From positions 1 through 64,000 of IMG/VR virus record IMGVR_UViG_3300028920_000044: a stretch of 64,000 nt of DNA; one strand, 5' to 3'. Positions 632 through 51,225 of this stretch are shown piece after piece (position 1 is the stretch's first letter; the number at the start of each line of letters is the position of its first letter). The notes below the pieces were generated by a model that was not told the DNA's origin, made no database searches, and saw only the letters and a program-made list of their open reading frames with translations. Both the position numbers and the translations under genes were made by a program. The stretch is from a virus.

Positions 632-938
632 TATCACTATAATAGCAAATATGGATGGTAACATTCATTTCGTAAAACAACTCAAAACTCCGGCACAATT
701 ATGGTATTATTGTACAGTCTATCCAGAAGATGTAACTATCATCTATGCAGAAAGAAAATATAGAAATCGCGAAACAAGTTACCAAGATGATGGTTACTAC
801 GAATCAATATTTAGATTAATATATGATATAAAATGGGAAGGCTCTAAATTAGAAAAATACATAAATAAAAAAATGGAGGAATACGACCGTGAACAAGAGA
901 AGGGAAATAAAACGATTAGCCGAAAAGGCTGTGGGTGA
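597..938 (+). CDS. Hypothetical protein
   Basis: The frame is open from an ATG at 561. The ATG at 597 is preferred because it follows a GGGGAC sequence at a suitable distance and reduces overlap with the upstream gene. The product is about 113 residues, with a compact N-terminal part (ITIIANMDGNIHFVKQLKT) and a charged tail. It overlaps the next gene by 50 nt. I do not recognise the family. Confidence 0.6.
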   Translation: MQNQTQPQKKNDITIIANMDGNIHFVKQLKTPAQLWYYCTVYPEDVTIIYAERKYRNRETSYQDDGYYESIFRLIYDIKWEGSKLEKYINKKMEEYDREQEKGNKTISRKGCG

Positions 939-3507
939 CATAATAGAAATGTTATACAAACATACGACTCCTATTGGATCAATATGCATTCAAGTAGCAA
1001 CAAATGAATTACCACCTGATGATATTCCTATCTTACACTTAGCTAATGCAGAAGTAACTGTTGATAAATCGATTGTATTATCTCCAGTGAGATATGTTTT
1101 AGCGCCTGAATATTTCGGTGAAAGAATTCGTGATAAGATGAAATTAGCTGCAAGAAAAGAGGAACTCAGAGCTAAAAGTATAGAAGATGCTGCTCAATAT
1201 TTTGTTGATAAATTGAAGACAGAAGGAATTGATAAATCTATAATATATTTAGAAGAAACTGGATTCAATGATTATGGTATTAGACAAGTATTCAGTTCTG
1301 TACTGGATAGAATTCAACAAAAGAATCCACCTCGTCCGGAACCAGTTAATATAGATTTAGAAGAAATAGAGCCTATGCCTCCACCTTCTCCTCCACCAGA
1401 ACCAATCGCAGAACCACTATCTACTCGGGAGGAATTGATATTACGTGATCAAATAAGAAGAAGACCAACTCGGACTATTGTTGAAGATCTTGATTCGATA
1501 ATTAATACGGAACTTCGAGATTCTCACACAGGGGATACGTTGAATATACCACCTATATATGCTGATGACGAACAAGTTCGAGCATGTAGAGTAATTAGAT
1601 CGTATTTTGATGATATCACTGATACTAATTTCATTGGGTTTGAGGATAAAATAGAAATTACTACTCGTGCAAGAGGACAAAACATATCAGTTGATGTAAT
1701 ACGATCAATGATTGCTATGTTTAATAATATACGGCAAATTGGACAAAGACATACTAGACTTAATACTAATCATAGAGCCCAAGCACAAGCATTAGTGCAC
1801 TACCTTTTTGGTAATGACACAGTTATTAGTCTTAGAAACGGTGGAAGACTTACACTCTGTGGCCAATTATTGGGAGTATATGAACCATACGTGATTGAAG
1901 AAGTGGCAAAACACAATACAAAAGCGAATCGAATACTTAATGCAACAGATGCGGTCAATTCGGTAAGAGAGGTCGATACAGTAGACGAAGAGGATCTTCA
2001 AGCTGCAGCAGATGTTTACGATCGAGTCGTAGAAGATGCTCGAGGGGATCTTCCAATCCCAACAGCATCTCAGTTAGATGAAGCTCGAATAGTTGATAAT
2101 GAAATGGAATGGAGAGAACATACTGAATTTCGATTAGGACAGATAGATCCAAATAGAAATTATGTCCAAGTAATCGAAGAGTATTATACTGATTTCATTC
2201 ATAACATTGGATGGATTAGTGATCCGGACAGATCTTATTTGACCCTTGAACTTTGTCGTCAATCAGGGCCAACAAGAACATCACGGACTCCAGCAATTAT
2301 GCACGAGGTTATTAACATTCTTAATTCTCGAGAGCATCTTCCTGTAACGCCATCTAATGATTTATCAGATATTGATAATGAGGATTTAAGAGTATCAATT
2401 GATCAATTTAATGACTTAAACAGACAATTAAATCATTTAGATCCAAGTGGCGGTTGCCGTGTCGCTATTCAAGATTACTTTAATACTTTTCTATATTCTA
2501 TTGGATGGATTTCCTCGGAGGATCGAAGTCAACTGATAGACCCTATTTGTGAAGAACGAGATATTAATCCTGATCTTATGAATCACATTGTTACATTTCT
2601 TAATAGTCGTGAGAATCTCCCTGTAGGTAGATCTGTTCCTACTCGAGGTATTTTTAATAGACCCAGTGAAGAAGTTCCAACACCTGCTCGAGTAGTATCC
2701 GATGAGGAGGATGATGAAGAGGAATTACCAGAAGGGTTTACCCCTGAGGAATTAATCATTGATATAGATGATATACCTCCTTCAAATGAAAGGCACGTTG
2801 CACATAGGTTGATTATTGACTATTTAAGAGGTGAAAATATAGATGTTGATTATATTGATAATGCTCATCGCGGAGAACTATTAGAATTGGCAACATTCGA
2901 AGAGATAGAACATAATGTAATGACTCAAGCGATTAATCAGTTTAATGGGGATGAGGAGGATCGCCGTAGACTTTTTGATGAAATGGAAACTCGACGAGAA
3001 TCTGCTGAAGAACCAACAATAACGATTACTTCTGAAACAGTTCTTGATGGTACTATGCAGAGGATTAATGTTGATGTTGCGGCGTTACAATTATTTGCCC
3101 GTATAACTGGGACAACAAGGGATGATGTAGATTCAATAGGGCGACGAGTTAGTGACGAACTAACAACAGAACTATTCGCTCGTGCAGATGAAAACAATAT
3201 TCCTAGGGACAGTATGTCTTGGGCTATTCGAACGTACAATTCAATACATGGGAATGAACCGATGAGCACTTATAATGATGAGCATAGTAGGCAATCTGTT
3301 ATACTTATAAACTCTAATTATGAGTCAAACTATATTATTAGTGATGACGACAGATTAGACATGATACACAAAGCAGAATTATTTGGTATAGACTCCCACA
3401 TATTTATATCAAGACTTGATATACATAATCGCGCGGCACATATACTTAATGAGGCAAGTGAAGAGGCAAGTGAACCTGAAACTATTCCGAGGCATGAACG
3501 AATTTAA
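889..3507 (+). CDS. Large acidic protein with about seven diverged internal repeats
   Basis: An 872-residue protein starting with GTG at 889, preceded by GGAGGA. Residues 1-145 form an N-terminal region, followed by a proline-rich linker at about 147-170. After that, a module of about 55-65 residues recurs, most clearly at about 420-485 (YYTDFIHNIGWISDPDRS ... LNSREHLPV) and 520-580 (YFNTFLYSIGWISSEDRS ... LNSRENLPV). More diverged copies lie near 227-285, 294-350, 633-687, 727-787 and 799-853. The linkers are very acidic. There is no signal peptide or membrane helix. The function is unknown; the bead-on-string layout suggests a binding or scaffolding role, which is inference. Confidence 0.85.
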   Translation: MNKRREIKRLAEKAVGDIIEMLYKHTTPIGSICIQVATNELPPDDIPILHLANAEVTVDKSIVLSPVRYVLAPEYFGERIRDKMKLAARKEELRAKSIEDAAQYFVDKLKTEGIDKSIIYLEETGFNDYGIRQVFSSVLDRIQQKNPPRPEPVNIDLEEIEPMPPPSPPPEPIAEPLSTREELILRDQIRRRPTRTIVEDLDSIINTELRDSHTGDTLNIPPIYADDEQVRACRVIRSYFDDITDTNFIGFEDKIEITTRARGQNISVDVIRSMIAMFNNIRQIGQRHTRLNTNHRAQAQALVHYLFGNDTVISLRNGGRLTLCGQLLGVYEPYVIEEVAKHNTKANRILNATDAVNSVREVDTVDEEDLQAAADVYDRVVEDARGDLPIPTASQLDEARIVDNEMEWREHTEFRLGQIDPNRNYVQVIEEYYTDFIHNIGWISDPDRSYLTLELCRQSGPTRTSRTPAIMHEVINILNSREHLPVTPSNDLSDIDNEDLRVSIDQFNDLNRQLNHLDPSGGCRVAIQDYFNTFLYSIGWISSEDRSQLIDPICEERDINPDLMNHIVTFLNSRENLPVGRSVPTRGIFNRPSEEVPTPARVVSDEEDDEEELPEGFTPEELIIDIDDIPPSNERHVAHRLIIDYLRGENIDVDYIDNAHRGELLELATFEEIEHNVMTQAINQFNGDEEDRRRLFDEMETRRESAEEPTITITSETVLDGTMQRINVDVAALQLFARITGTTRDDVDSIGRRVSDELTTELFARADENNIPRDSMSWAIRTYNSIHGNEPMSTYNDEHSRQSVILINSNYESNYIISDDDRLDMIHKAELFGIDSHIFISRLDIHNRAAHILNEASEEASEPETIPRHERI

Positions 3508-3552: not shown

Positions 3553-3618
3553 ATGTCTCATGGAGGGAACATTTGTCATTTCTCTGTTAGTGGACACTCT
3601 CCGGAGTTTCACTTTTAA
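3553..3618 (+). CDS. Tiny ORF (21 residues), possible leader peptide
   Basis: ATG follows TAGGAGAATGATAA, a good ribosome binding site, and encodes a 21-residue peptide rich in His and Ser (begins MSHGGNICHF) ending in TAA. A terminator-like hairpin follows seven bases later, and then the zinc-ribbon gene. The order of leader ORF, hairpin and gene resembles an attenuation arrangement, but expression is not shown. Confidence 0.4.
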   Translation: MSHGGNICHFSVSGHSPEFHF

Positions 3619-3624
3619 GTTGGC

Positions 3625-3668
3625 TGGGGGTAGAGAGAGATCTTTGCCCCCACATCTTTTATTTTTTT
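3625..3668 (+). terminator. Terminator-like hairpin before the zinc-ribbon gene
   Basis: TGGGGG (3625-3630) pairs with CCCCCA (3647-3652), and a T-rich run (CTTTTATTTTTTT) follows. It sits between the tiny ORF and the next gene on the same strand, so it would end or attenuate transcription from the motif at 3520. Confidence 0.55.
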
Positions 3669-3691
3669 CAACTAAATGTTTGGAGGCGACT

Positions 3692-4165
3692 ATGGGCGAA
3701 GTAAGATGTCCTAAATGCAACAGTTTCGATTGTGTTAAAAAGGGCAAAACAAAGGATAAACAATTTCAAAGATTACAATGTAAATCATGTAAAAAAGGAT
3801 TTCAAGTAGAAACAAGTATTGTAAATCGGCAAACAAACTCGCCACATGAAGAATTAAGAATTGTTAAGCATCCAGATGGAGCATTTAGTATTAATACAGT
3901 TAGATTTGTTGATGCTGGAAGAAAAGATAAGATAGCAGAGAACAAAGAATATATCGTATCCAAAGTATCAACATACAAAGATATTGTGTCTTTTACAAAA
4001 GGATTTGCACAATCTGTTAATCCACACGAAATTATGTTAAATAGATTATTAACTGATTCATTAATACATGAAATAGAATTAATATTTCAACCAAACATAT
4101 CTCAACATATTATTAATCTTCTTGAAAACATGGCGAGAGGATTGAAATGGGGTGATAATGTTTGA
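3692..4165 (+). CDS. Zinc-ribbon protein
   Basis: The frame is open from 3560, but the ATG at 3692 has a TGGAGGCG site just upstream and the resulting 157-residue protein begins at once with the metal site. Residues 5-33 hold two C-x-x-C knuckles (CPKC ... CKSC) separated by a basic stretch, as in the zinc ribbon at the N-terminus of IS1-type InsA and some transcription factors. The remaining 120 residues show no transposase or nuclease motif I recognise. A nucleic-acid-binding role is likely. The stop overlaps the start of the next small gene by 8 nt. Confidence 0.75.
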   Translation: MGEVRCPKCNSFDCVKKGKTKDKQFQRLQCKSCKKGFQVETSIVNRQTNSPHEELRIVKHPDGAFSINTVRFVDAGRKDKIAENKEYIVSKVSTYKDIVSFTKGFAQSVNPHEIMLNRLLTDSLIHEIELIFQPNISQHIINLLENMARGLKWGDNV

Positions 4166-4310
4166 AATTCTTACGAACTTCAACAATATGTCGTGGTGGG
4201 AAGGAGCGACATTATTCTATATATTTATAGTATGGGCGATATCAACATATAGTCTTATTAAATATATAGTAAAGTCTTTAATCGCAAGAGGGGAAAAACA
4301 AAAACGATGA
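4158..4310 (+). CDS. Small membrane protein (50 residues) coupled to DNA polymerase
   Basis: ATG at 4158 overlaps the stop of the zinc-ribbon gene, and its TGA overlaps the polymerase ATG (ATGA at 4307-4310). The product has one membrane helix (about LFYIFIVWAISTYSLIKYIV) and a basic end (ARGEKQKR). The overlaps on both sides argue that it is real. Its role is unknown. Confidence 0.65.
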   Translation: MFEILTNFNNMSWWEGATLFYIFIVWAISTYSLIKYIVKSLIARGEKQKR

Positions 4311-6406
4311 AAACAAAAGATTATCAATCATTTATAGAAGATATTAGAACTGGGGTAATCTCCCCATATCAAATGTATAACACTGATATTGATTACCCAC
4401 AATATTTCGCGGCCCAACATTATTTAAATCACCCAAATGATACGATTGACAAGAATATGCCCGTTCCTATATGTTTTCTTGATATTGAAGTGTATACTGG
4501 TAATGCTGGCGAATTCGCTAAACCAATAGAAGCTAAATATCCAATGAATGCGTTTACTTTGAGAAATTCGTTTGAGAAGAAATATGTATCATTTTATATG
4601 CTAACAAATAGAAATGCTAGCAAGTTTCCGCATGATGATATTAAGATTGCTATAGATTATTACAAAAAAGAATTGGTAGAACATGGATATCTACAAGAAG
4701 ATGAAGATATTGAAATTCATTTATTTAATCAGGAACTACCAATGTTGAAATCATTTTGGAACTATATACATAGTACAGACCCTGCTGTAATAAGTGGATG
4801 GTATAGTAGTGAATTCGATATTCCTTACATGTATCATAGAGCTTGTAAATTGACTGATGATGAAAGAGGATTTGAAGCTGCACAAATAATGAGTAAATTC
4901 GGAGTTATAAAGAAAACCAAATTTAAGAATAAAGTATTAGTCAATATTAGTGATTATACAGATATGGATTTAGCATATCTTTATCGTCCTCGCGACGAAG
5001 GCGGATTAAATTATGGGAAGAAACAAGCATCGTATGCATTAGATTGGGTAGCGGACAACGTTTTAAAATTGAAGAAACTGGAGTATAAAGGGTCTGGTAT
5101 GACACTAGACACATTTTATGATCGAGATCCAGTTAATTTTCTTTTGTATAATATTATTGATGTTGTATTAATTAAATTATTGAACGAAAAATTAAGGCAT
5201 ATTGAATCCCACAACATGCTAAGGAGATTAATGAAGACTCCTATTGGAGTTGCAATGAGAGGTCCTGCAATGTTGTTTGATACAATGACTCAATATAACT
5301 TATCCAAAGAAGGGAAATATACTCGATATGGATTAGTTAATGAAACGACACAACAAATAACTGCTCCTCAAGTATCACAATTGCCTAAACCGAAAGATAG
5401 TTCTGTTAAATGGTCTATCGAAGAAGTAACTGAGGAGAAATATAGAACTATTGTTACTCGATATCCTGGAGCATATGTTAAAGAAGGGTTAGGAAAAACA
5501 ATCTCTCTTAAGGATGGTATTACAATTGATATGGATGCTACTGCTCTATATCCTAGTATGATGCTTCAATACAATATTAGTTTTGATAGTATGTTCGGTA
5601 GAGTGATTGATCCCATTTGTTATGATTTCTTACATTTGATCGATAAACATATTGGTACAGGTGTGCCCTTTCCTCCTGGGTTATATAATAAATTTCTTGA
5701 GTATTCTAAACATTATACTCAACGAATTTCTCCTCAGAACAAAGGTGACTATACACAATATGTATATTATATCTTGTCACATCTAGTAACTAAATTGATT
5801 AATTCTAGAGTTCACATAAATAAATTATTGGTTCCTGAAATTAGAGAACATTATATTATATTAAAACTATATCTATTACCACTAATTGATTTATTGACAG
5901 AAGTACATGATAAATCAGAAGAATATAATACGTTTTCACACGACTATCTTCTGAACGGCAAAACGAATGTACATCATGTATGGGTTGTAGAGAATATAAA
6001 TGAACCAACAATTAGAATTACTAGAGTTCTTGTATCAGAATTTCAAGATTATTTAGTTAAGAACAACATATCGTTAAATTTAGCAGGAACTTTACTTTAC
6101 ACGCATCAACATAAGCTTGGAGTATTTGCAGGATTTCTTCATGAGATTTTACAATTAAGAGGCACTTATAAAGATAAAAGAGACACTTATCCAGAAGGAT
6201 CTGATGAATACAAGTTCTATGATATGCGGCAGTTTGCGACTAAGACCACTGCAAATTCGACTTACGGCTTGATGGGGCAATCAACCTTTAGATACAGTGA
6301 TAAATGGGTTGCTAAGACCATTACTGTTAATGGTCGTCTAACATTAAAAATATCACAGATTTGCGGTGAACTATTTCTAAGGGCACAGAGGGAACAAATG
6401 AGATGA
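4307..6406 (+). CDS. Family B DNA polymerase, N-terminal part lacking motif C
   Basis: A 699-residue protein with a 3'-5' exonuclease domain: Exo I D-I-E at D59/E61, Exo II GWYSSEFDIPY with D171, Exo III YNIID with Y281/D285. The polymerase palm follows: motif A D-A-T-A-L-Y-P-S (410-417) and motif B K-x3-N-S-x-Y-G (646-654). The protein ends 45 residues after motif B, before the D-T-D-S motif C that supplies a catalytic aspartate, and has no thumb domain. The stop TGA overlaps the next ATG, and that gene does not supply the rest. In T4 gp43, motif C follows motif B at roughly this distance. The C-terminal part must be encoded elsewhere if the enzyme is active. No intein signature is visible at the C-terminus. 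Confidence 0.92.
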   Translation: MKTKDYQSFIEDIRTGVISPYQMYNTDIDYPQYFAAQHYLNHPNDTIDKNMPVPICFLDIEVYTGNAGEFAKPIEAKYPMNAFTLRNSFEKKYVSFYMLTNRNASKFPHDDIKIAIDYYKKELVEHGYLQEDEDIEIHLFNQELPMLKSFWNYIHSTDPAVISGWYSSEFDIPYMYHRACKLTDDERGFEAAQIMSKFGVIKKTKFKNKVLVNISDYTDMDLAYLYRPRDEGGLNYGKKQASYALDWVADNVLKLKKLEYKGSGMTLDTFYDRDPVNFLLYNIIDVVLIKLLNEKLRHIESHNMLRRLMKTPIGVAMRGPAMLFDTMTQYNLSKEGKYTRYGLVNETTQQITAPQVSQLPKPKDSSVKWSIEEVTEEKYRTIVTRYPGAYVKEGLGKTISLKDGITIDMDATALYPSMMLQYNISFDSMFGRVIDPICYDFLHLIDKHIGTGVPFPPGLYNKFLEYSKHYTQRISPQNKGDYTQYVYYILSHLVTKLINSRVHINKLLVPEIREHYIILKLYLLPLIDLLTEVHDKSEEYNTFSHDYLLNGKTNVHHVWVVENINEPTIRITRVLVSEFQDYLVKNNISLNLAGTLLYTHQHKLGVFAGFLHEILQLRGTYKDKRDTYPEGSDEYKFYDMRQFATKTTANSTYGLMGQSTFRYSDKWVAKTITVNGRLTLKISQICGELFLRAQREQMR

Positions 6407-6660
6407 TATTTGACAAAGAAGACGTAGAAACTATATTGCTTGAATACGTTGAATATGGAGTACTAGAAATAACAGGACAGAACTCAGAATTACAACCATC
6501 ATTCAGATTTACAGAAGCACATTTAACAAAAATAATTGAAGGTGATCCTTCTTATATTAGATTTATAGAACGAAGATTTAACATTGAATGTGATAAAGAA
6601 CTTGTTGAAATTTATAAGAAGATGTTAAAAAGTCACGCGAAACAAACGAAACTAAATTAA
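6403..6660 (+). CDS. Small helical protein downstream of the truncated polymerase
   Basis: An 85-residue charged, probably all-helical protein that begins within the polymerase stop codon (ATGA overlap). It has no DTDS motif and no thumb-like or nuclease motif, so it is not the missing polymerase part. It sits exactly where the polymerase is cut. I do not recognise the family. Confidence 0.65.
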   Translation: MIFDKEDVETILLEYVEYGVLEITGQNSELQPSFRFTEAHLTKIIEGDPSYIRFIERRFNIECDKELVEIYKKMLKSHAKQTKLN

Positions 6661-6734: not shown

Positions 6735-7562
6735 ATGGGTAACAAATCTGATGATGTACCACAGGCGTTTTCTATACAAACAGGAAACACAAGAACAGTA
6801 TATCTCGGTCCAATACACGAGGGACCAGGGAACATTTTACAACAAAATCAATCATTGCCCGTTGAAATAGGTCCAGAGCCAACTCATATTACGGATTATC
6901 CAACAGATGCTTTCACTCCGCCACCTCTTTCACATCAGGAAATTGTGATATCGAGTGAAGCATTAAAACAAGGAGTCCAATTTGATTCTACATCAAATAT
7001 GAATTCAATGAAGCAAAAATCTCAGTATCACATAATAGATTTATTTTGGTTAATCAATCCAAAATATGGGCGATCTGAGATGCCTCAAGACGAAGCGCAT
7101 TTTTGTCAAATCTCATTTAATATTGACTTCGGCAATTTAAAGATTACATTATATAAAATCCCAAATGGATCATTACAAGGACACATATTATATTTAATGT
7201 CGTTACACAGATTGACGTCCGGTACAATTTATCCGTCGTCTATTTTTAATTTAATTTATAGCGATAGGAGGTTTCAAAAGAATAAAGCAACCAATAGTAT
7301 TGATACAGAAAATATAGAACCAATTAAATTTACATGTCTAGAACAATTAATACAACATACGGGCGAGAATTGGCAGAGAAATCGCCCGCTTTGTCATTTT
7401 ACTATTAATGACACAATTAAATTACATATACGCGATCCACTAAGTGGAGCATTTTACTATGATTTTAAAGGTTGGCAAAAAGATGCAATATTACATTCAG
7501 CAAAATTTGTTGTTGATAACGGGTATATCTTAACAGGTAATCAGAATATCAACAGTGGTTAA
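6735..7562 (+). CDS. Hypothetical protein, 275 residues
   Basis: Starts at ATG 6735 after AAGGAG. Residues 1-80 are low in order and rich in Pro, Gln and Ser. Residues 90-270 look like a compact alpha/beta domain with aromatic strands (QISFNIDFGNLKITLYKIP). There is no membrane segment or catalytic motif I can identify. It lies between the DNA polymerase and the SSB-like gene, behind its own promoter-like motif. A replication-associated role is only a guess from position. Confidence 0.75.
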   Translation: MGNKSDDVPQAFSIQTGNTRTVYLGPIHEGPGNILQQNQSLPVEIGPEPTHITDYPTDAFTPPPLSHQEIVISSEALKQGVQFDSTSNMNSMKQKSQYHIIDLFWLINPKYGRSEMPQDEAHFCQISFNIDFGNLKITLYKIPNGSLQGHILYLMSLHRLTSGTIYPSSIFNLIYSDRRFQKNKATNSIDTENIEPIKFTCLEQLIQHTGENWQRNRPLCHFTINDTIKLHIRDPLSGAFYYDFKGWQKDAILHSAKFVVDNGYILTGNQNINSG

Positions 7563-7576
7563 GGAGACACACAATC

Positions 7577-8002
7577 ATGTTGAATTACAACAAAGTTATT
7601 CTTTGTGGTGTAGTTTGTAACACTCCGACACTTCGTCATAATGGTACTGGAACAAGTGTAACGAATTTCACCTTAAAGACAATCGAACGATGGAAGGATA
7701 AAAAGACAGGGAATATTAAGAAACATTCCAAATATCATAAGATTGTCGTTTGGGGATTGAATGCAGAGCAAACAGTTAAATTTGTTAAAAAGAATGTGAT
7801 TGTATTAGTGGAGGGGTGTCTCAATTACCATAAGTACCCAAAAAATGGGGATCAAAAGAATATTGCAGAAATTAAAGCATCAAATGTAGAATATCGTGGC
7901 GTATTAAAGATTAAAAGATCTAATTATAAAGAAGAGATAAATCGTGATGATTTACCCGTTAACAAACCACAGGAGATAAACATACATGACCTCGATAACT
8001 GA
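7577..8002 (+). CDS. ssb: Single-stranded DNA-binding protein (SSB-like)
   Basis: A 141-residue protein with an OB-fold layout typical of bacterial SSB: an N-terminal strand (NKVILCGVVCNTPTLRHN), the T-x-V-T-N-F-T-L strand, an aromatic H-K-I-V-V-W-G strand and the V-x-V-E-G-C-L-N-Y segment. The C-terminal tail is short and ends in acidic INIHDLDN rather than the canonical DDDIPF, so it may not recruit host proteins in the usual way. It would coat single strands during phage replication. It overlaps the next gene by 17 nt. Confidence 0.82.
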   Translation: MLNYNKVILCGVVCNTPTLRHNGTGTSVTNFTLKTIERWKDKKTGNIKKHSKYHKIVVWGLNAEQTVKFVKKNVIVLVEGCLNYHKYPKNGDQKNIAEIKASNVEYRGVLKIKRSNYKEEINRDDLPVNKPQEINIHDLDN

Positions 8003-8774
8003 TGTGCAGAAATCTAAGCCATCTATAGATTTACCGATACAAAGAGTGGGCATTACAGAATTGAAAGTTCCAATATTTATAAGTGAGCAAGATGGTAGCT
8101 ACCAACACACAGTTGCTGATGTCGACGTATTTGTTGACCTTGCTGCAACTTCTAAAGGTACACATATGTCTCGTCTCGCAATCGGTGTTCAAAAATTTAT
8201 AGATCAACGATTAAATTCGAATCTACTAAGTGACATTGCTGAATATATAAGAAATAAATTAGATGCACAAACAGCACAAATCATTTATAGGTTCCCTTAT
8301 TTTATTAAAAAATTAGCACCTGAATCAAAAGAACCAGGACTCATATATCACAATGTAGTGTTTGACTTAACTCGTACACATAAGGAAGATACAATATTTA
8401 GAATGAGTACAGAAACAACTGCAACAAGTTTGTGTCCTTGTTCGAAAGAAATATCTGATGATGGCGCACATAATCAAAGATCAAAAATCAAATTAACTGT
8501 TATCCCTAGAAATTCTTGCTTTGTGTGGCTTGAAGATTTAATTAATATTAGTGAACAAAATGCTTCTTGTGAAGTATATAGTTCTCTAAAAAGAATCGAT
8601 GAAAAACACGTCACAGAAAGAGCATATAATAACCCGATGTTTGTTGAAGATATGGTTCGTCAAATATATCAAACTCTTTCTAAACGGGATGATTTGCAAT
8701 GGTTTATGGTGGAAATCACAAATGAGGAATCAATTCACCAGCATAGTGCGTATGCGCGTATGTCAAACTGGTAA
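7986..8774 (+). CDS. folE2: GTP cyclohydrolase IB (FolE2 type)
   Basis: A 262-residue enzyme of the FolE2/MptA family, which converts GTP to 7,8-dihydroneopterin triphosphate, the shared first step of folate and 7-deazaguanine (queuosine, archaeosine) synthesis. The hallmark T-S-L-C-P-C-S-K-E-I-S followed by G-A-H-N-Q-R-S (about 146-166), including the conserved metal and catalytic Cys and His, is present. So are the early K-G-T-H-M-S-R segment and the C-terminal E-S-I-H-Q-H-S-A-Y. Length matches the family (about 255-300). It overlaps the SSB-like gene, and a hairpin follows its stop. The transporter 360 nt downstream points to deazaguanine rather than folate. Other pathway enzymes (QueD, QueE, QueC) are not in the window. 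Confidence 0.93.
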   Translation: MTSITDVQKSKPSIDLPIQRVGITELKVPIFISEQDGSYQHTVADVDVFVDLAATSKGTHMSRLAIGVQKFIDQRLNSNLLSDIAEYIRNKLDAQTAQIIYRFPYFIKKLAPESKEPGLIYHNVVFDLTRTHKEDTIFRMSTETTATSLCPCSKEISDDGAHNQRSKIKLTVIPRNSCFVWLEDLINISEQNASCEVYSSLKRIDEKHVTERAYNNPMFVEDMVRQIYQTLSKRDDLQWFMVEITNEESIHQHSAYARMSNW

Positions 8775-8851: not shown

Positions 8852-9100
8852 ATGAAAGGATTAGTTGTATTATTAGTATTAGTAATTGGAGTTGGAATCT
8901 CTTTTGGTCAAACACCGGGAGATAATGAAGAATCAGGTAAATTGATAGTTACAATAACGGATGAAGATGGAAATTTAGTCTCGTTACCTTCTGAGCCTCA
9001 TGTAGCACCTATAGTGACTAATGATTCTCTTTCTCCACCAAATTCTGATCTTCCAGCACCAATAGATTTAAAAATTAATAATGTGCAATACAATGAATAA
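8852..9100 (+). CDS. Small exported protein
   Basis: An 82-residue protein behind AAAGGAGG. The first 19 residues are a signal peptide (MKGLVVLLVLVIGVGISFG, then Q), giving a mature part of about 63 mostly acidic, Pro- and Ser-containing residues (KLIVTITDEDGN near its start). There is no lipobox cysteine. It lies between folE2 and the transporter, so a periplasmic partner in precursor uptake is conceivable, but nothing in the sequence shows it. Confidence 0.65.
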   Translation: MKGLVVLLVLVIGVGISFGQTPGDNEESGKLIVTITDEDGNLVSLPSEPHVAPIVTNDSLSPPNSDLPAPIDLKINNVQYNE

Positions 9101-9136
9101 GAAACAATAGACTCACATATAAAAGGAGGTAAAAAT

Positions 9137-9682
9137 ATGGAAAAGAAGTGGTATTTTGCAATAGGTTATATGTTAAGTATTGTGTTGGCGAATTTGACAG
9201 TCGCTTATTTTGGTTTAGTTACATGGTTCGGATGGCTTGTATTCCCCGCTGGAGCAATCTGGATTGGACTTTGTTTCTCTCTAAGAGATTTTGTTCAACG
9301 GGAATTTGGGCATAAAGATGTTTGGTATTTCATGATAGCAACCACTGTTATTACTACAATCATGAGTATCATTTTATCACACCTTCCTGTACCATTATGG
9401 AAGGTTGCTGTAGGATCTGCATTAGCATTTATTGTGTCTGAAGCTATCGATTGGTTGGTTTACTATTATCTTAAGAAAGATATCATTTGGAGGATATGTG
9501 TGTCCAACTTATTTAGTGTACCAATTGACTCTATAATATTCGTGGGAATAGTCTTCGGAAGTTTTAGCTTTCTCGCGCCTCCAGTATGGGGACAGACAAT
9601 AGTCAAATATATAAGTGGGCTGTTAGTTATACCGATCATTATCTATTTTCGCAAAAAAACAGCAGAACCTGTAACAGCATAA
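9137..9682 (+). CDS. yhhQ: VUT/YhhQ-type queuosine precursor transporter
   Basis: A 181-residue, very hydrophobic protein with about six membrane helices. It has hallmarks of the VUT (YhhQ) family: the F-P-A-G segment followed by R-D-F-V-Q-R-E-F-G-H, the helix V-S-E-A-I-D-W-L-V-Y, and the C-terminal R-x-x-x-S-N-L-F-S-V-P-I-D-S-I-I-F with F-G after it. Characterised family members import preQ0 or preQ1, and some phages with deazaguanine-modified DNA carry relatives. It is slightly shorter than E. coli YhhQ (about 220). It starts after AAAGGAGG. Together with folE2 it suggests the phage boosts deazaguanine supply. The substrate is inferred. Confidence 0.85.
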   Translation: MEKKWYFAIGYMLSIVLANLTVAYFGLVTWFGWLVFPAGAIWIGLCFSLRDFVQREFGHKDVWYFMIATTVITTIMSIILSHLPVPLWKVAVGSALAFIVSEAIDWLVYYYLKKDIIWRICVSNLFSVPIDSIIFVGIVFGSFSFLAPPVWGQTIVKYISGLLVIPIIIYFRKKTAEPVTA

Positions 9683-9695
9683 GGAGATTTAAGAA

Positions 9696-10073
9696 ATGAA
9701 AGTTAAACTGAATTTCTTACTAGGGCAACCTACAGTTAATGGTCGATTTTACGAACCTACGATGTTGAAAGAACAAATAGATAATTTAATTAAAGTAAAC
9801 GGTTGCATATTAGTAGGCCCGGATTCAAAACAAATTAATGAAGCAGATGGGTCTGTTGCTGAAGAAGTTATTGTCGGATCTGTCAAAGAATATGAGATTC
9901 TTGAAACCGGAGAAGTGATCTTTGAAGTTGAAGGAATGACAGATCAAACAGAAGCTTATATTTCTAAAAATCCTGGCGTAATTAAACTTTCAATATTTGG
10001 TTTCGGTAACATGGATGAAAACAAAGTTGTCCGAGACTTTACACTCACGTCATTATTTATGACAATGGACTAG
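9696..10073 (+). CDS. Small protein with prohead-protease-like N-G-R-x-Y start
   Basis: A 125-residue protein behind AAGGAG. Residues 15-27 read N-G-R-F-Y-E-P-T-M-L-K-E-Q, and later segments (IVGSVKEYEI, VIFEVEGMTD, GVIKLSIFGFG) follow the same order as the core of the window's prohead protease (NGNKRKYSP ... EIVGEIETL ... IGFSLRALG). The catalytic His and Ser of that enzyme are not evident. It may be a shortened, inactive relative. The comparison was made by eye and is weak. Confidence 0.6.
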   Translation: MKVKLNFLLGQPTVNGRFYEPTMLKEQIDNLIKVNGCILVGPDSKQINEADGSVAEEVIVGSVKEYEILETGEVIFEVEGMTDQTEAYISKNPGVIKLSIFGFGNMDENKVVRDFTLTSLFMTMD

Positions 10074-12922: not shown

Positions 12923-14905
12923 TTAGTGAACAATAATATAAACATTAATTCTTTCAATTGCTCGAATTGGCGTAATGTTACAATAAATATTCAATTCTGA
13001 TCTAATATCATCAAACTCAACACTAACATTGAAAGATTTAAGAATACTGTATCTTTCCAAAGAAGGATTCTCAACAAATTGACCTAGGAATTCAGTTACC
13101 CTAAAATTCGCCTGATTAATCCAGTACGTGGTTGCTTTTCTTTGGAGAATATCTTTCAACAATGTCGGGATAACTTTCCTAATATACGCAACAAACTTAG
13201 CAACGTGCCCACGTTTAAGAACGGAGAGTCGCTTCCAAGTTGTTAGCTGAGAAAGAATGTATTTACCTTGAGGTTCGACAATTACTGGATTAAGTTCTAC
13301 ATCGAGCAAATCACCTCTTTCAGTATGATTTGCTTTATACGACAATTCAATATTCTCTGCAATAGCACCTTTTTCAATATTAGCAACCGGTTCACCAATA
13401 AAATATACGCCATCACAGTACAGATGTCTTTCAATAGCGTGATATACTGGACTCATATAAGTCCATCTTCCTGTATATTGATCAAATACTTTACGGTATT
13501 GGACATAAAGCATAGAAGTCCAATTATTCCAGGGAACATCATTTAATCTTGCACTCAAGTCATCTTCATATTTATTGAAGTTTGTTCCTGTATCTGCAAG
13601 ATGTATACAGTCCTGCCGATAATCTGCAAGATACCTTGCACCATCTTGAATTTCTGAAGGAAACCCACCAGACACAATGTAATCTGGTTCATACCAAGGA
13701 TATACGCATTCCGGTAACTGCTCGATAGATCCGTCAACACTCTGTAAGTCACCCTTAAATGCTTGTTTAACCAAACCAAGAACTGTAGGAGTAGCTGCAA
13801 TGTCACCAGATATAGCATCAAAAAGACCAGTTCCATCAGTACCATTTTCTAATGCTAACCCACCACTAGAAATATTCAATGTACCAATAGGTCCAGTTTC
13901 ACTTAACAGAAGTGTAACCTGAAGACGCTTATCTTCGGCAGTTGGGCCAGACACTAACTGATCGATTGCTCCACCAGTAACTGCTTTTATATAGATACTT
14001 TCTCTATCAATTACATCTTCAATAAACATTACATTACCAGTGGTTAAATCACGAATCGTATTACCTTCTGCATTTCTCGGAATCAATGAAACAGTCCAAG
14101 GTCCTTCTATCAATCTCTCTGTACCATCTTCTTTAACAAAGTAGATAGCAATATCCATAAATATGTATTTATACAAAGGATTACCAGCATCGTCGGTCCA
14201 CATCTTTTCCATTTCGACGTTTCGAGTACCTTTGATGCGAAGATTATTGTAGTATGCACCAGCACCAGTTGCATAGAAATGATAAATAGCTTCTGGATCT
14301 GTAGCTGGTAGGTCCCCAACAGCAGTCACGTTAGGAGTTGATTCCCCACTAAACGGAGTGTACTTGACAGAACTTGCGGTTCCAGTTGCGCCCGTATAAT
14401 CGTTTGCTAAAACGATAAGGAATCCAGCCGTATCGTCCTTACTCACAATTTGTTCTGCTTCTGCATTCGTATCACCATCAGCATAAATCCAATCACCAAT
14501 ATCGAACGCATCGTACCCTGCTTGGGTATCACAAACAACTTGATCCGAATCAGTAGTGAAATTAAAATCTTCGGCTATTGTTTGAATTGAGGTAGTAGAT
14601 AATTTTAGACTCGCGTTTGACCAATCTGAATCTTCGGGAACAACGCGACAAACCAATACTTTTCCTGTATAATCTAATGCTTTATCGATCTGATAAAATG
14701 ACTGGCTAACTCGTCTAATATCAGGTTGTCCGAATAGTTGATGAAATTCTTCCTTCGAGGTTACAGTGACAATTCGATTATGAGGACCTCGATCACACAA
14801 TATTACCGAATATACCGTCCTTCCAATTTCCAGCGTGGGAGCTATATAGCTAGCATCCTCGATGGTAACATAGACAGCAGGCTCCCTTCTATCTGTAACT
14901 GGCAT
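12923..14905 (-). CDS. Contractile tail sheath protein
   Basis: A 660-residue protein with the typical sheath start (REPAVYVTIEDASYI ... G-R-T-V-Y-S-V-I-L-C-D-R-G-P) and the conserved C-terminal core (DDIRSELNIYCNITPIRAIE, then a closing I-N-V-Y-I-I-V strand) shared with T4 gp18 and other myophages. The size is close to T4 gp18 (659). It starts behind AAGGAG and lies directly upstream of the tail tube gene. It forms the contracting outer tail layer. Confidence 0.93.
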   Translation of the reverse strand: MPVTDRREPAVYVTIEDASYIAPTLEIGRTVYSVILCDRGPHNRIVTVTSKEEFHQLFGQPDIRRVSQSFYQIDKALDYTGKVLVCRVVPEDSDWSNASLKLSTTSIQTIAEDFNFTTDSDQVVCDTQAGYDAFDIGDWIYADGDTNAEAEQIVSKDDTAGFLIVLANDYTGATGTASSVKYTPFSGESTPNVTAVGDLPATDPEAIYHFYATGAGAYYNNLRIKGTRNVEMEKMWTDDAGNPLYKYIFMDIAIYFVKEDGTERLIEGPWTVSLIPRNAEGNTIRDLTTGNVMFIEDVIDRESIYIKAVTGGAIDQLVSGPTAEDKRLQVTLLLSETGPIGTLNISSGGLALENGTDGTGLFDAISGDIAATPTVLGLVKQAFKGDLQSVDGSIEQLPECVYPWYEPDYIVSGGFPSEIQDGARYLADYRQDCIHLADTGTNFNKYEDDLSARLNDVPWNNWTSMLYVQYRKVFDQYTGRWTYMSPVYHAIERHLYCDGVYFIGEPVANIEKGAIAENIELSYKANHTERGDLLDVELNPVIVEPQGKYILSQLTTWKRLSVLKRGHVAKFVAYIRKVIPTLLKDILQRKATTYWINQANFRVTEFLGQFVENPSLERYSILKSFNVSVEFDDIRSELNIYCNITPIRAIERINVYIIVH

Positions 14906-32331: not shown

Positions 32332-35300
32332 TTAACTAAACGCATGACCTACATTACTATTATATGCATAGTTTTTATATCTGTTATTAAATTCATAAGC
32401 ACAATCAACAAACAGGTTTCGGATAAATGTATCTAATGTAGGATCTGTTACTTCTAAATCTTTCTCATCAGCAACTCGACCTTCAGATGTTCCTGGTCTA
32501 GGCAAAGGAATAGTCAAAGGTGGCATTATTTGATTCTGAGAATTTGATCTCTCTTTTAATTTAGCCTCTGATTGAATTTCTGATACTTTGTCTGCTAACG
32601 AATTGCGAAGAGTAGTAGGGTTATATCGTTCATTAAACGGTCCGGCAGCTTCTGCTCCTTCAATTCCAAGTTTACTTGCATCAATTTCTTGTCCACTAAG
32701 TTTTGAACCTAACTGTCTCTCAGCTACAATATCACTAGCATATTCTGGAGTAAAAGAAGGATCAAGACTCTTAAATACTAATTCAGGATCATACCATTTG
32801 CCCTTCTTCTTAACTCCGAAGTGAAGATGTTTCTTCATACCTGGAATAGGACCAACATTACCAGCTTGACCAATTACATCTCCTGGATTGACTTCATCGC
32901 CAATTTTTACTTGCTTATTACCTAAATGCAAATAGTGTGTACTAAATCCCTTTTCAGCTGATGGACCATGGTGAAGCACTAACGATCCCCATCTATCTCC
33001 ACTTCCAATAACTTTACCTTTAAATGCAGCAACTACATCATCAGCTCTCATATCAGAACCTTTATGTAATTTGCTTGCACCTTTAAGTTTAGTTCTTCTT
33101 GGTCCAAATGGAGAAGTTATAAAATTTGCCCCTGGCCACATGAACCCACCTTTGCCCATTCTCTTACCAACCCTAAAGGGCTTGTATTTAAACTTCCTAT
33201 CACTGAATCCTAAAGCAGTTGTTAGCTTTCCCCACCAACTTGTTGGTTTGACTTCATCAACACCGAATGTTTTTTCTGTATCTAACATTCCTAAGTCATC
33301 ATACATATCCATAGCAGCAGCACTAGCTCCACTAGCTCCAGCCATACCACCCATACCAGCATATCTGCCTCCTGGTTGAACTACTTTTCCTGCAGCGGCA
33401 GTACTACCACCAGCTGCTAACATTCTACCAGCAGAACTACCCATCAATCCGGCATTTTTCTTTACTGCTTCTTGATCTTTCTTTTTAGCATCATCAACAA
33501 TTTTCTTTTTCTGATCAAGTCGTTTCGCTTCATTTTCAATAGAAGCTTTCGCAGCAGTTTCTATATCTTTAGCTTTCTTTTCAGAGTCTTTTAATTTATC
33601 AGCATCAGATTTGGTATATTTGCTTGCAGGTGATTTTGGAGCATCACCAGCTTTTGGTTTTAATCTCCCTTCTTGTTGTTGTAACATTTTAAGTTGAACA
33701 GAAGGAGGAAGATCAGACCATGCCGCCATTTGCCCGGCATAATGATCAATATATTCTTTATCATTTTGGTCTACAGCTTGTTCATATTTACGAATTGCTT
33801 CTTTATGTAAATTATTATCAATACGAGTAAATTTCTTTACATCTGTACCCGTCGTTTTCTTAATTTCTGTTTTTACCTGGTTCTCAGCATCTGCTTCGGC
33901 TACAGTAACCCAACCGTATCTATTACTAATAGAAGGCACTATCTTTTTATATCGTAACATCATAAAATTGGTGATAATACCTTCATCATCATAAACATAT
34001 AATTTTTTAGCTTCAGGACTTGAGTTACCTTCTAATCTCTCAGTCATCGTCCCTTTAATCTTTTTAGTCTGCGCTTTAGATTCCTGTACTTGCTTAATTA
34101 CTTTACTGGTGCCTGTCATTTTATCAACATCAATTGCACCTAATGTTGCCCATTTAAGACCAGTACCAGCACCGAGACCTAACTTTTGCCACGCAGATAA
34201 TTTCTCACCCAAAGGATCTCCATACTTTTCTTGAGCTCGATAAGCACCAGCTGCAGTACCTCCTATTCCAGCTAATGCTGTTAATCCAGCAGCACCTATA
34301 GTTCTAGCACCGGTGGCTAATCCTCTACCAAGACCCCCAAGAGCTCTACCAGCCATTGGTACACCTCTTTTAGCAATCCAACTAGCACCTTTTTTAACTC
34401 CTGTTTTAGCAAGACCAGCCGCCTTCTTTGAAGCAAAAAGACCAGCGCCAACACCAAGTCCACCACCAACAATAGCACCAGGAACACCACCAGGAATACC
34501 ACCAGCCACTCCTCCTAAAAGAGCAAGTATAGCAGGAACAGCAAGTGGTAAGAAAGACATTGCACTACTAATATCAAATCCACCTTTCTCTTTCTTCTTT
34601 TTGCTTTTCTTTCCTATACCTTTGTGATCTGTATCTTCAGTATTCTCATCGATCTCACCAAGCTTTTCAAGCACTGAATCCATCCACTTGACAGCTTTCA
34701 ATTGTGCCGTTTTTTCTTTGAGTTCATTTAACTCAGACTTGAGACCTCTACCATATGCTCCAGCAGCACCTTTAACATCATCACCACTACCAGTTAACAT
34801 CTTTAATATAAGTTGAGGTCCACCAATTATTTCACCTTTATGAACATATGCTAAACCAGTTTGACCTACAACTCCACCATCTGCTGCTGCAGCTTTTTTC
34901 TCTCCATACCAATTTTCTGGATCATAATCATCAGCAGCATTTCGTCCAAGACTTTGTAGATATTCAACGATACTGATAATTTTACTAACAGGACTGCGAT
35001 GTGGTAATACGTCGCCAATATCTGAACTATCATCAAACTCTTTTATTATTTTTTGTAGTTCCCGTTGTCTTGAACTAGCAGTTGATCTTTGAACTGTAGG
35101 GCTTTCATGTTCGGCCCATATCCTTTCTAATTCTGCCTGAGGATCACGATTTTGTTTCTCTATTAATGCTTGTCGTTCTTGAGGAGACATACCTCTCATC
35201 ATCTGAGCTTCTTTTCTTACACGAATCTTTTCTTCTTCTATCTTTTTCTCTTCTTCCTGTTTAGCTTTTATTTCTTCTTGTCTCTTTGTCCATTCTTGTG

Positions 35301-46920: not shown

Positions 46921-48183
46921 TTAACTCCCGTATTGTCCACGGCATACAGTTTTGCTCATATTATAAATTAGACCATAAATCAATACATTTCGAATTTGAA
47001 TTCTTGTTACCTCACTATATCGATCATATACTTTAGTCAGGGCTTTCCCATCTGTATCTCTAAGATCATCATCAAAAATTTGTTTCAATAACATATTGCT
47101 AAGTTTCTGTATCTTTCGAGTATCCGGATTATTTTTACTCGAAATAATAACTTTCTTAACAATCGTTCTATAATTCGCTTTACAGATATCAATTTTATCA
47201 ACAACATTGGTCCGCGAAAGAATTACACTAATTAAATCATATAAGATATCATGATATTTATGATTATGAATAGATTGAAGTATTGCTTTAATAGTAACCT
47301 CTTTAACTTTAAATGACTGATTAAAACTTTTAATTAACGTACTAGGATAAGAGGGATTTGGATTCATTGTGATGTAATCGGTTACGTCATTTGTTATTTC
47401 ATCACGAATATGAACAGTAGAATATTGATCAAACCCTGGTTCATCATCACCCATACCAACGCTTGGGCTAGAAATAGACATGCCCATTTTATGTGCTTTC
47501 ATATAAAGAGGCAATAATCCACCTTGTGCTTCGTTTTTACCCGTTGTTATATTTCTTCTCGGGTTAAACATAAAGATCTGATTAATGCGACTATACATTT
47601 GTTCGAATAATCGTTTTAATTTAAAAGAATTTCTTTTAATCTCTGGTCCATATTTGAATATAAGTTTAGGAACATGATAATCATGAAGTAAGCTGATAGG
47701 ACTGTCATATTTAGATACACTATGCTTCTTAGTGATCATATGAGTTACAACATACTTCATGATTTTCTTGTCACAATATTTAATGTACCGTACCTTACGA
47801 CCATTCCAAACTTTCATCAAGCAGCACATCATTGCGTTTTTGTATATGTGTTCTTTCTTTCCCATCAAACCATAATATGTAAGTAATAATAAAATCTGAT
47901 AATATGGGTCACTATGCATAGCATTCTTCATAGCGCCCATACCCCAATCTTTTTTATATGCATTGTAAACATCAATTTGATCAATACCAATTATTTTGTA
48001 TAATTTTAATACGCCTGCCATTGGAAGCGTAAACTTGAAACAATACCCTTCATCAGATGACATAGATTGGGAGAATGCGGTACTCACAAACCTCGAAATC
48101 TCTTGATACACCTGGCGTTCTATTCGCGGATCAGCATGAAATATTTGCTGTAGTTCCTTATGAAGTTTCGTTATTTCTGACAC
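46921..48183 (-). CDS. Hypothetical protein, 420 residues
   Basis: Starts with GTG at 48183 behind AGGAG. It is mostly helical, basic and Met-rich, with the unusual segment NPRRNITTGKNEAQGGLLPL in the middle. No motif is recognised and no membrane helix is evident. Probably a virion protein by position between structural genes. Confidence 0.65.
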   Translation of the reverse strand: MSEITKLHKELQQIFHADPRIERQVYQEISRFVSTAFSQSMSSDEGYCFKFTLPMAGVLKLYKIIGIDQIDVYNAYKKDWGMGAMKNAMHSDPYYQILLLLTYYGLMGKKEHIYKNAMMCCLMKVWNGRKVRYIKYCDKKIMKYVVTHMITKKHSVSKYDSPISLLHDYHVPKLIFKYGPEIKRNSFKLKRLFEQMYSRINQIFMFNPRRNITTGKNEAQGGLLPLYMKAHKMGMSISSPSVGMGDDEPGFDQYSTVHIRDEITNDVTDYITMNPNPSYPSTLIKSFNQSFKVKEVTIKAILQSIHNHKYHDILYDLISVILSRTNVVDKIDICKANYRTIVKKVIISSKNNPDTRKIQKLSNMLLKQIFDDDLRDTDGKALTKVYDRYSEVTRIQIRNVLIYGLIYNMSKTVCRGQYGS

Positions 48184-48212
48184 TTTTCATGCTCCTATTA
48201 TGATGATAAAGA

Positions 48213-48935
48213 TTAAACACATGTAGCAATAATCTTTGCGAGATTATGCATCTTCTTCTCGAAAGATTCAACAAGATCAACTAATTTATCTTGGTCAAAC
48301 ACTCTCCCATAATCGACATTGTCAGTAAGATATTGAATCCGAGCCCAAGAACCAAAAGGAAAAGAAACATTTCTAAGAAGGTTCTCAATAACAGCAACTT
48401 TAATACCAAATTTGATAGCTTCATCTGTATCGGTACCGTCTGTAATTAATGCAGCGATTGTATCTTTCGACGTATCGTAATACCGTTCTTTTCTTTGTTC
48501 GTCGTTAAGTTTGTAAAAGTTACGATCCAAGTTCTCGTAAATAGCTTTTGACAAACGTCTTTGAGCTTTTTCAAGAGAGTCATCTATAATTGATTCATTA
48601 ATCCCTTTCCCATAAAACTCAGGAACGATATTAACAAACTCATAAATTTTTCTTACATTTGTAAACAAAGCACTCATAACGCCTTCGATTTGAGGATGCA
48701 CACTCTCATCAAGCTTCTGAAATAGTTGATCATAGTACATCATATCAACTCTAATTTTTGATTCGAATGCAATTTGATCATAAGGTTTATAAAACCCTTT
48801 ACCCATATCCTTCTGCTTTGCAATTCGTTGTGCTTCTTCAAGAACTGTAACCCTTATACCTTTGCTCTCTGTAATCTTACTCAAAGCATCCCGAGATTCT
48901 CGCATAATATCCATCTGGGTATCTTCGGTAAACAT
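48213..48935 (-). CDS. Hypothetical helical protein, 240 residues
   Basis: Starts at ATG 48935 behind AGGAAAT. Charged and helical throughout, with no Cys cluster or membrane segment, and an Asp/Glu-rich middle (ALITDGTDTDEAIKFGIKVA). Unknown. It is co-directional with its neighbours, with short gaps. Confidence 0.65.
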   Translation of the reverse strand: MFTEDTQMDIMRESRDALSKITESKGIRVTVLEEAQRIAKQKDMGKGFYKPYDQIAFESKIRVDMMYYDQLFQKLDESVHPQIEGVMSALFTNVRKIYEFVNIVPEFYGKGINESIIDDSLEKAQRRLSKAIYENLDRNFYKLNDEQRKERYYDTSKDTIAALITDGTDTDEAIKFGIKVAVIENLLRNVSFPFGSWARIQYLTDNVDYGRVFDQDKLVDLVESFEKKMHNLAKIIATCV

Positions 48936-48960
48936 AATATTTCCTCCATAAATGAAAATG

Positions 48961-51225
48961 TTAAATTCTGCCTTCTAACTCATTTCTCGTCATATTCTCG
49001 ACATAGGTCTCAAATGTACGAATGTTAGATTTATTGATTTGTGTCATATACTGAAGTTTATAGTATACTTGCCCACGCTTAGAATCTATGACAATTAAAT
49101 TTGGCACATCTAATCTTTGGTTAATAAATTTGACTATTCCCTTGACATAATTGTCTGTAACATTTAGCCCCTCCTCTACACCTTTAGATAACAAATGGCG
49201 CCAAGACTTTGAAACAACTGCTGCATGTAACATCACAATCGTCTCAAGTGGTACTACTAATGTATAGTTTGGTAAATCCAAAGCATCATTAGCAACAGTT
49301 TCAATTTCTATATCAATGTAATCGACATACTGACACACAGACCCCATCACAGCTACATAATATAATGTTCTAATAAAACTTTTAATATAACCCTTTGTCT
49401 GATTAATAAATTCTTCAACTGCTTCTATTAATTTATCTGGATCATCATGGTCTAATATATTTCGTCTTAATATTGCAATATTATCAGGTACACCTTGGGG
49501 GTTATATCTAAATTCTTGATGATATGTAATAACTATATTTTCAACAGCTTGATCAATTACTCTTTCAACTTTATCAAATATTGGTTTAGGGTTATTAATA
49601 ATTTTTCCTAATTGATATGCTAAACTTTGATGCATACTATCAAATTCTTCTCCAATATCGGTAGAAACTCGAGTAAACATGCCAAAACTTTCTTTAGTAA
49701 TCATTGGATCACTAAGCATCACATTTTTTAAATCCTCTGTTCTTGATTCTACTTTTTGGATTGCTTTACCTAAAGTCTTTGTACATATTGACTTCATAAG
49801 TTTAGCTTTGTTTTCATCAACCCCGGCACCTCTAAAAGAGTTTTCAACAGCAGAGAATACTTCTCCAGTTATTTTCGCTATTTCCCCCATTAAGAACTTA
49901 TCAAGCGTTTCTTCTTTTAACTTTTGATAATCAATAATAGATTCATGAGGATGTATTGTCATCAATAATGATTTCGTATACATATTGATATTGTAACCTA
50001 AATACGCCAAAAAATTATGAAGAACTAGATCGCTTAGTTCTCCCGCTTTTGGAGATAATGTTTTAACTGTTGATTCTATTTGTCCTGGGTTACGAGTCAA
50101 TCCAAATTGTGATCGTAAAAGATTATCATTAAGCATAAACTTAAAGAAAAGCTCTGCCTCTTTTAGATTCCCTTGTACGACATTTAATATATCAAATTCC
50201 TTCACAGGTTTGAATGTATCTCGTGGCATATTAGTTGGTACAACTGTAGGTACACCCTCTTTTCCAGGCGAATAGAGTTCTTTTGAAGCTATTTGGTCTT
50301 GTCTAGATAATGGTAATCTTGATGGTATCCTAGGATCAATCCACGTTTTTCTCCACCGTTTTACGGTTTCATATGGTTTCCCTATGGCTTTCTCAAAACG
50401 ATTTGATATTCTTCTACCAAAAGATTCTAATCCTTGTGCTATTTTAGGATGATCTGGAGCCAACCAAGAAATTAATCTGTCATGAAGTGTGTTTCTATCT
50501 TGTTCAGCATCAAACTTCGACATATTCGCTAAAAGATTCCAAGCTTCTTTCTCATCAAGACGTTTAATAACATTAAATATGTACTTAATATTTGTTTCAC
50601 CTTGCGGCCCACCAATTGGTTTCTTTAAAGCAATCGCTGTGGTTAAGACGTATGCAAGAGTTAAAGAATCAATAGAGTATGCTTTAGTACCAACAATTAC
50701 AGGGACATCAATTAAATTTTCTAGCGTTATTAACTCAACAAAAGGATTCAATTTCTTTACCCTTGGTTCAGTTGCTAGATATCTTTTGATAATAGCTGTT
50801 TTCTCTCTAATCTTTTCCTGGAGTTTATATTCATCCATTCTTGGTATAGCAGAAGGTTCTTGCATCTGATAAGATTGATAACTTCCAGATCCGCCTTGTC
50901 CTAATGAAGATTGAGAGATTAAAGTTTGCACATCTGATGAATTTCCGTTTTCATCAGTTAAAGAAAAACTTTTCGAAGCACTCGCTACTATATTCAATGC
51001 ATTGCTTACGAATATCTCCTTCAACATAGAAACAGCCATAAAGTTTCTCATCGTCTGTTCAAACTTCTGTAATCGCTTATCAAATAACATTGGGTATATA
51101 AATGTTAACTTAAATTGTTGGTCTATATCCTCTACACTGATGTTCTTAGCTCCTACATCAAAGGTCTTTACCTTTCTCAGGTTACGAGTTGCGCTTGAAT
51201 AAAGCTGTCTTCCTGTTAAATTCAT
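48961..51225 (-). CDS. Large hypothetical protein, 754 residues
   Basis: Starts at ATG 51225 behind GAGAGGTAAAG. Predominantly helical with long amphipathic stretches and a basic Arg/Lys segment near 270-300 (KPYETVKRWRKTWIDPRIPS). No catalytic motif is recognised. Size and position suggest a virion protein, perhaps an internal or ejected one; this is inference. Confidence 0.7.
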   Translation of the reverse strand: MNLTGRQLYSSATRNLRKVKTFDVGAKNISVEDIDQQFKLTFIYPMLFDKRLQKFEQTMRNFMAVSMLKEIFVSNALNIVASASKSFSLTDENGNSSDVQTLISQSSLGQGGSGSYQSYQMQEPSAIPRMDEYKLQEKIREKTAIIKRYLATEPRVKKLNPFVELITLENLIDVPVIVGTKAYSIDSLTLAYVLTTAIALKKPIGGPQGETNIKYIFNVIKRLDEKEAWNLLANMSKFDAEQDRNTLHDRLISWLAPDHPKIAQGLESFGRRISNRFEKAIGKPYETVKRWRKTWIDPRIPSRLPLSRQDQIASKELYSPGKEGVPTVVPTNMPRDTFKPVKEFDILNVVQGNLKEAELFFKFMLNDNLLRSQFGLTRNPGQIESTVKTLSPKAGELSDLVLHNFLAYLGYNINMYTKSLLMTIHPHESIIDYQKLKEETLDKFLMGEIAKITGEVFSAVENSFRGAGVDENKAKLMKSICTKTLGKAIQKVESRTEDLKNVMLSDPMITKESFGMFTRVSTDIGEEFDSMHQSLAYQLGKIINNPKPIFDKVERVIDQAVENIVITYHQEFRYNPQGVPDNIAILRRNILDHDDPDKLIEAVEEFINQTKGYIKSFIRTLYYVAVMGSVCQYVDYIDIEIETVANDALDLPNYTLVVPLETIVMLHAAVVSKSWRHLLSKGVEEGLNVTDNYVKGIVKFINQRLDVPNLIVIDSKRGQVYYKLQYMTQINKSNIRTFETYVENMTRNELEGRI

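Follow-up and report, generated by a model that had tools for sequence, protein, structure and literature searches.

Replicative DNA polymerases usually consist of a single chain in which all of the catalytic residues lie in one palm. The polymerase gene at 4307-6406 (plus strand, 699 amino acids) of the uncultured virus record IMGVR_UViG_3300028920_000044 (G000; 109,194 bp), of which the first 64 kb form the window analyzed here, encodes a product that ends before the last catalytic motif, and the locus raises the question of whether this gene is broken or is one part of a divided enzyme. The product is predicted to be a T4 gp43-type family B polymerase and the N-terminal piece (N-half) of a real, inherited gene split rather than the remnant of a broken gene, because related giant phages carry the last motif and the thumb in a separate gene (C-half). 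We are confident that a clade of these phages shares a replicative family B (T4 gp43-like) polymerase distributed over separate genes, and that 4307-6406 encodes its large subunit.

The 699-residue protein comprises an exonuclease domain, palm motif A and fingers motif B. Pfam searches identified the family B exonuclease domain PF03104 (E=9.6e-10) and DNA_pol_B PF00136 (E=1.2e-14), the latter over profile positions 99-194 of 453 only. The profile phrog_262 (DNA polymerase) matched over positions 91-553 of 856 (E=9.2e-65), and T4/RB69-type polymerases of known structure were also matched. Exonuclease motif I (FLDIEV, with DIE at residues 59-61; 4475-4492) was aligned with T4-type polymerases and is followed by motif II (GWYSSEFDIPY, residues 164-174; 4796-4828) and motif III (YNIIDVV, with YNIIDV at residues 281-286; 5147-5167). 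Motif A (DxxSLYPS type) reads DMDATALYPS (residues 408-417; 5528-5557) and motif B (KxxxNSxYG type) reads KTTANSTYG (residues 646-654; 6242-6268), all on the plus strand. The preliminary description of this locus had reported intact exonuclease motifs, an intact motif A and motif B, and an end 45 residues past motif B, and all of these are read in the frame. Motif C (DTDS) and the thumb are absent from the 109-kb fragment and are found as a separate gene in relatives.

On a single metagenomic contig, such an end could also arise if an error of sequencing or assembly had truncated an ordinary full-length polymerase. The probability of this is negligible, in that no motif C was found in any downstream frame and records obtained independently from other samples stop at the same position, with their C-half in another place. 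The preliminary description had named a base error concealing a full-length frame as one finding that would overturn it; because no frame downstream holds motif C and other records stop alike, no base error can fuse this frame.

The divided arrangement is seen in the 314,837-bp record IMGVR_UViG_3300044712_000810 (G002). Its N-half gene (47567-49681) was aligned over 47603-49672 with residues 9-696 of the window protein at 47% identity, and the two proteins end alike. The C-half of G002 is a separate 296-residue gene (33073-33963) whose product begins MLNDGFYKKVEDPKYLKNILYGDTDS and has YGDTDS at residue 21. The two G002 pieces are complementary, since phrog_262 was covered at positions 92-562 by the N-half and at 572-768 by the C-half (E=1e-16). 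The preliminary description had suggested that a gp43-type polymerase is split and that its other half may lie elsewhere; this is supported by a separate, intact gene in relatives, although not by such a gene on the 109-kb record itself.

Used as the sole query, the window polymerase matched nothing in viral contigs, and a two-row N-half alignment retrieved only G002 in viral contigs and nothing in GTDB genomes; a sheath search of GTDB genomes also returned nothing. Further relatives were gathered through UvsX, sheath and terminase alignments. When 16 records including G000 were scanned with phrog_262, polymerase genes were found in 11, and in none of the 11 did a frame span both sides of the break. 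Beyond G000 and G002, nine IMG/VR records carry polymerase genes with the same break or part of it.

In N-halves with a readable end, the chain stops 40-49 residues past motif B (45 for the window protein, whose tail and stop occupy 6269-6406, plus strand, at the end of the post-motif-B helix). Separate C-halves begin 19-35 residues ahead of motif C, and those of G002, G006, G009 and G011 contain a whole motif C, 19-24 residues in. The exceptions are G013, in which motif C is completed only after an intein, and G018, in which the C-half follows another domain. On T4 gp43 the break corresponds to approximately residue 604-609, which in the T4/RB69 fold lies between the post-motif-B helix and the motif C strand. 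DTDS, the KK.Y motif and thumb sequence are conserved in the C-half, as are motifs A and B throughout the clade.

The own C-half of the G000 virus was sought directly. The preliminary description had proposed that a D-T-D-S/thumb frame might be found elsewhere in the genome, and the search of the 109,194-bp record yielded none: none of the six frames had DTD[SAGT] in a polymerase context, and no C-half was detected with PF00136, phrog_262, phrog_1918, a home-made C-half hidden Markov model or the G002 C-half. A profile of eight of the clade's own C-halves also gave no candidate on this record; with G002 and G006, the same profile reached scores of about 400 bits. The 109-kb record is a genome fragment. 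From the polymerase onward, most of the genes that match G002 are collinear with its stretch between 47.6 and about 131 kb. A 691-residue open frame is truncated at the right end of the record, in which no terminal repeat was found. No counterparts of the uracil-DNA glycosylase (UDG), UvsW-like helicase and C-half genes, which lie together at 28-34 kb in G002, were found in G000. The C-half gene of the G000 virus would therefore be expected in sequence that the record does not cover, most likely beside the UDG and UvsW-like helicase genes. A tail-fibre-like protein with collagen-like G-X-Y stretches (L004 6117-8192, minus strand) runs off the right end of the record.

The missing C-half is what a decayed gene would predict, in a virus that uses another polymerase or that of its host. 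This reading is very unlikely. The record that lacks the C-half is a fragment, every motif of the N-half is intact, and the protein is 47% identical along its length to an orthologue that ends at the same residue. Furthermore, neither G000 nor G002 yielded a family A polymerase. Selection on the gene parts in relatives also argues against decay: between G014 and G017 the ratio of nonsynonymous to synonymous substitution rates (dN/dS) was about 0.05 for the exonuclease part and the C part alike, at a dS of about 0.8. The tested parts are under strong purifying selection in this one pair of relatives.

The break appears as a single, inherited event in the exonuclease-domain tree, in which the ten broken sequences formed one clade (support 100/99, one change), with G000 and G002 as sisters. 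The clade stood apart from the whole and 43A/43B polymerases of reference phages, a small set picked from INPHARED hits. Across records, the exonuclease-part distances were correlated with the C-part distances (Mantel r 0.96; 0.78, p 0.0016, without a near-duplicate), a correlation that could also arise from shared phylogeny alone. The exonuclease domain is complete in one chain, and the N-half alone could accordingly be imagined as an exonuclease or regulatory protein, with another role for the C-half. We regard this as extremely improbable, given that motifs A and B are retained clade-wide, that the C-half retains DTDS, the KK.Y motif and thumb sequence, and that the distances of the two parts correlate.

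The arrangement of the separate genes varies among relatives and is mostly permuted. The C-half gene is at 33.1 kb and the N-half gene at 47.6 kb in G002, and the C-half lies about 10 kb ahead of the N-half in G009. In G011 the C-half comes first and overlaps the N-half by 14 bp, and in G013 the order is C-half, a 9-bp gap and N-half (G012 yields the same hits as G013). G006 has its N-half at 152-150 kb on the minus strand and its C-half at 132-131 kb. In G014 and G017 the C-half is followed directly by a gene for the exonuclease only (L163 6554-8611 and L164); the motif A/B part was not found in either with a seven-sequence profile, and these contigs may be incomplete or the part may be too divergent. 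In G018 the C-half is fused behind a family-4 UDG-like domain (L165 10567-13086, minus strand; PF03167 E=4.6e-17), and the exonuclease gene and then the motif A/B gene follow. Only the N-half was found in G010.

Overall, the C-half precedes the N-half or exonuclease gene in seven of the eight records showing both, some of which are close pairs. A UDG gene is near the C-half in G002, G006 and G013. The gene clusters are UDG, helicase, C-half and N-half in G013; helicase, C-half and N-half in G011; and UDG, helicase and C-half in G002 and G006. These clusters suggest that the C-then-N order is ancestral, a polarity that we infer from them.

The polymerase genes of some clade members are interrupted further, in motifs A to C, by inteins, a split intein or a group I intron-like element. 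The preliminary description had noted no intein signature, and this holds for 4307-6406: neither the window protein nor the G002 C-half contains an intein by Pfam and NCBIfam. It does not extend to the clade, several members of which carry inteins in the polymerase. The N-half of G010 has a mini-intein in motif A (DLDA...VCN|TSLYPS; L169 7874-10387, minus strand). The C-half of G013 has an intein of about 360 residues at YGD|TDS, and motif B of its N-half is interrupted by a frame for an HNH endonuclease with group I intron signals (Rfam E=1.1e-10 and 3.9e-6, under the gathering score); the locations of these elements are L162 4898-6898 and about 8899-9855, plus strand. In G018 an N-intein closes the exonuclease part (L165 7382-8905, minus strand), and the motif A/B part (L165 2604-3761, minus strand), about 3.6 kb apart from it, starts with a C-intein ending VHN|TSMYPS (TIGR01445 1.6e-7, TIGR01443 7.4e-4). 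G018 thus appears to join its exonuclease and A/B parts through a natural split intein at motif A.

This use of inteins by the clade, with the apparent split intein of G018 at motif A and the G013 intein at YGD|TDS, together with the group I intron-like element at motif B of G013, raises the alternative that the halves are also joined covalently at the B/C break, by a split intein or by RNA trans-splicing. Such joining is unlikely. The N- and C-halves at the B/C break are without N- or C-intein sequence, and the positions at which they end, with the own start codons of most C-halves, leave no room for an intein. None of the clade's elements is located at the B/C break, which is therefore independent of the inteins now present, although it may descend from an old one.

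Split family B polymerases are already known; the break site and the gene order here differ from those of T4 43A/43B, RM378 and archaeal split PolB. The preliminary description had pointed to split T4 relatives; the T4-type family B sequence and the division into two genes are shared with these, but the break is a different one. In the gp43A/gp43B polymerases of Aeromonas phages 25 and 44RR and Acinetobacter phages Ac42 and Acj61 the split lies between motifs A and B (approximately T4 residue 501 in Ac42), whereas that of the clade lies between B and C (approximately 604-609). In Ac42, 43A precedes 43B, whereas in the clade the C-half gene is usually first (seven of the eight records showing both), and the clade is separate in the tree. 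The window gene has no A/B break and, as judged from relatives, probably no 43A-then-43B order. Rhodothermus phage RM378 is similar in having a T4-related, large-phage family B polymerase with a separate C-terminal part; its Rm378p092 (522 amino acids) aligns from approximately T4 residue 382 and holds motifs A, B and C, so that its cut is before motif A, whereas the window protein has the exonuclease and motif A in one chain.

Two further systems can be compared with the clade. The archaeal split PolB3 of Methanobacteriales and the polymerase of Nanoarchaeum equitans are likewise PolB enzymes in two genes, and the N. equitans break is near motif C. That break is at the pol-c intein site YGD|TDS and has trans-splicing intein halves (PMC549080), and the Methanobacteriales split is thought to be intein-derived (PMC4104785). 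The clade's break, in contrast, is about 20 residues before motif C rather than at YGD|TDS, and G000 and G002 have no intein. The split minimal DNA polymerase III alpha of group 2.2 jumbo phages also shares an active site between two proteins from distant genes, but is of the polymerase III type and accompanies a family B polymerase (PMC7824862). As aligned, the clade's break position differs from those of 43A/43B, RM378 and N. equitans, and neither this break site nor the gene order was found described in the literature searched, itself only part of the literature.

The model suggested by these data is a replicase of two chains. The proofreading exonuclease, the contacts made by motif B and the aspartate of motif A would come from the N chain, and the palm strand with the motif C (DTDS) aspartates and the thumb from the C chain, the small subunit. 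Because the cut falls between the post-motif-B helix and the motif C strand, both chains would have to associate to complete the palm and the catalytic aspartates, that of A from one chain and those of C from the other. The two chains are predicted to assemble non-covalently and to act as a polymerase. A precedent for such reassembly is the split gp43A/43B of phage 25, the parts of which co-purify and are active (PMC2988022).

Two points weigh against this model: the own C-half of the G000 virus was not seen on the 109-kb record, and all of the relatives are uncultured contigs. AlphaFold was uninformative for the N-half (two sequences) and the G002 C-half (one sequence), with a predicted local distance difference test score of 35.

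Taken as a whole, it is somewhat probable that a clade of large tailed phages uses an obligate multi-chain family B polymerase with its palm in two genes cut between B and C; that in an ancestral replication cluster, ordered UDG, UvsW-like helicase, C-half and N-half, the C-terminal gene stood ahead of the N-terminal one, as if tandem duplication and then partial loss had produced a circular permutation; and that some members are cut into three chains, with the exonuclease and A/B parts joined by a natural split intein. The break separates the two catalytic aspartate motifs throughout the clade, lies apart from any intein in most members and mostly occurs with a permuted gene order. This makes it testable how an essential active site is divided yet kept working, and why inteins, a split intein and an intron have accumulated in the three catalytic motifs of the polymerase gene. 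The split also explains why a truncated polymerase would be listed when such phages are annotated.

Downstream of the polymerase, an 85-residue open reading frame (6403-6660, plus strand) overlaps its stop by 4 bp (ATGA). The preliminary description had correctly reported that the next gene begins in the stop codon and is unrelated to the polymerase; indeed, this frame matched no family and no phage protein and has no kinship with the polymerase. It had also treated the small gene as a notable part of the junction, a view we abandon: the frame has no counterpart in G002, where the orthologue of 6735-7562 directly follows the polymerase. Because it is absent from G002, the 85-residue gene is not part of the junction and is best read as a later, incidental insertion outside the split itself.

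The conserved neighbours that follow are 6735-7562 (plus strand), to which no function was assigned and whose G002 orthologue adjoins the N-half; a single-strand DNA-binding protein at 7577-8002 (plus strand; PF00436 E=3.8e-21), syntenic in G002; and a FolE2 GTP cyclohydrolase at 7986-8774 (plus strand; PF02649 E=1.2e-81), syntenic in G002 and present in G013. Two other FolE2-bearing contigs, L014 and L015, were rejected as close kin as they look like T4-like phages. Just upstream of the polymerase, a 201-residue open reading frame (window 3560-4165) weakly matched an InsA-like zinc ribbon, at a score below the Pfam cut-off, and an 872-residue frame (window 889-3507) matched no Pfam family. 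In the relative G001, the UvsX gene is split over two frames near residue 126 (L017, about 14869-14872), which reflects either a genuine frameshift or an error of sequencing. The gene for the large terminase subunit of the same record contains a group I intron (RF00028, 111.8 bits; L018 15766-16011), whereas the terminase gene of the window is without one.
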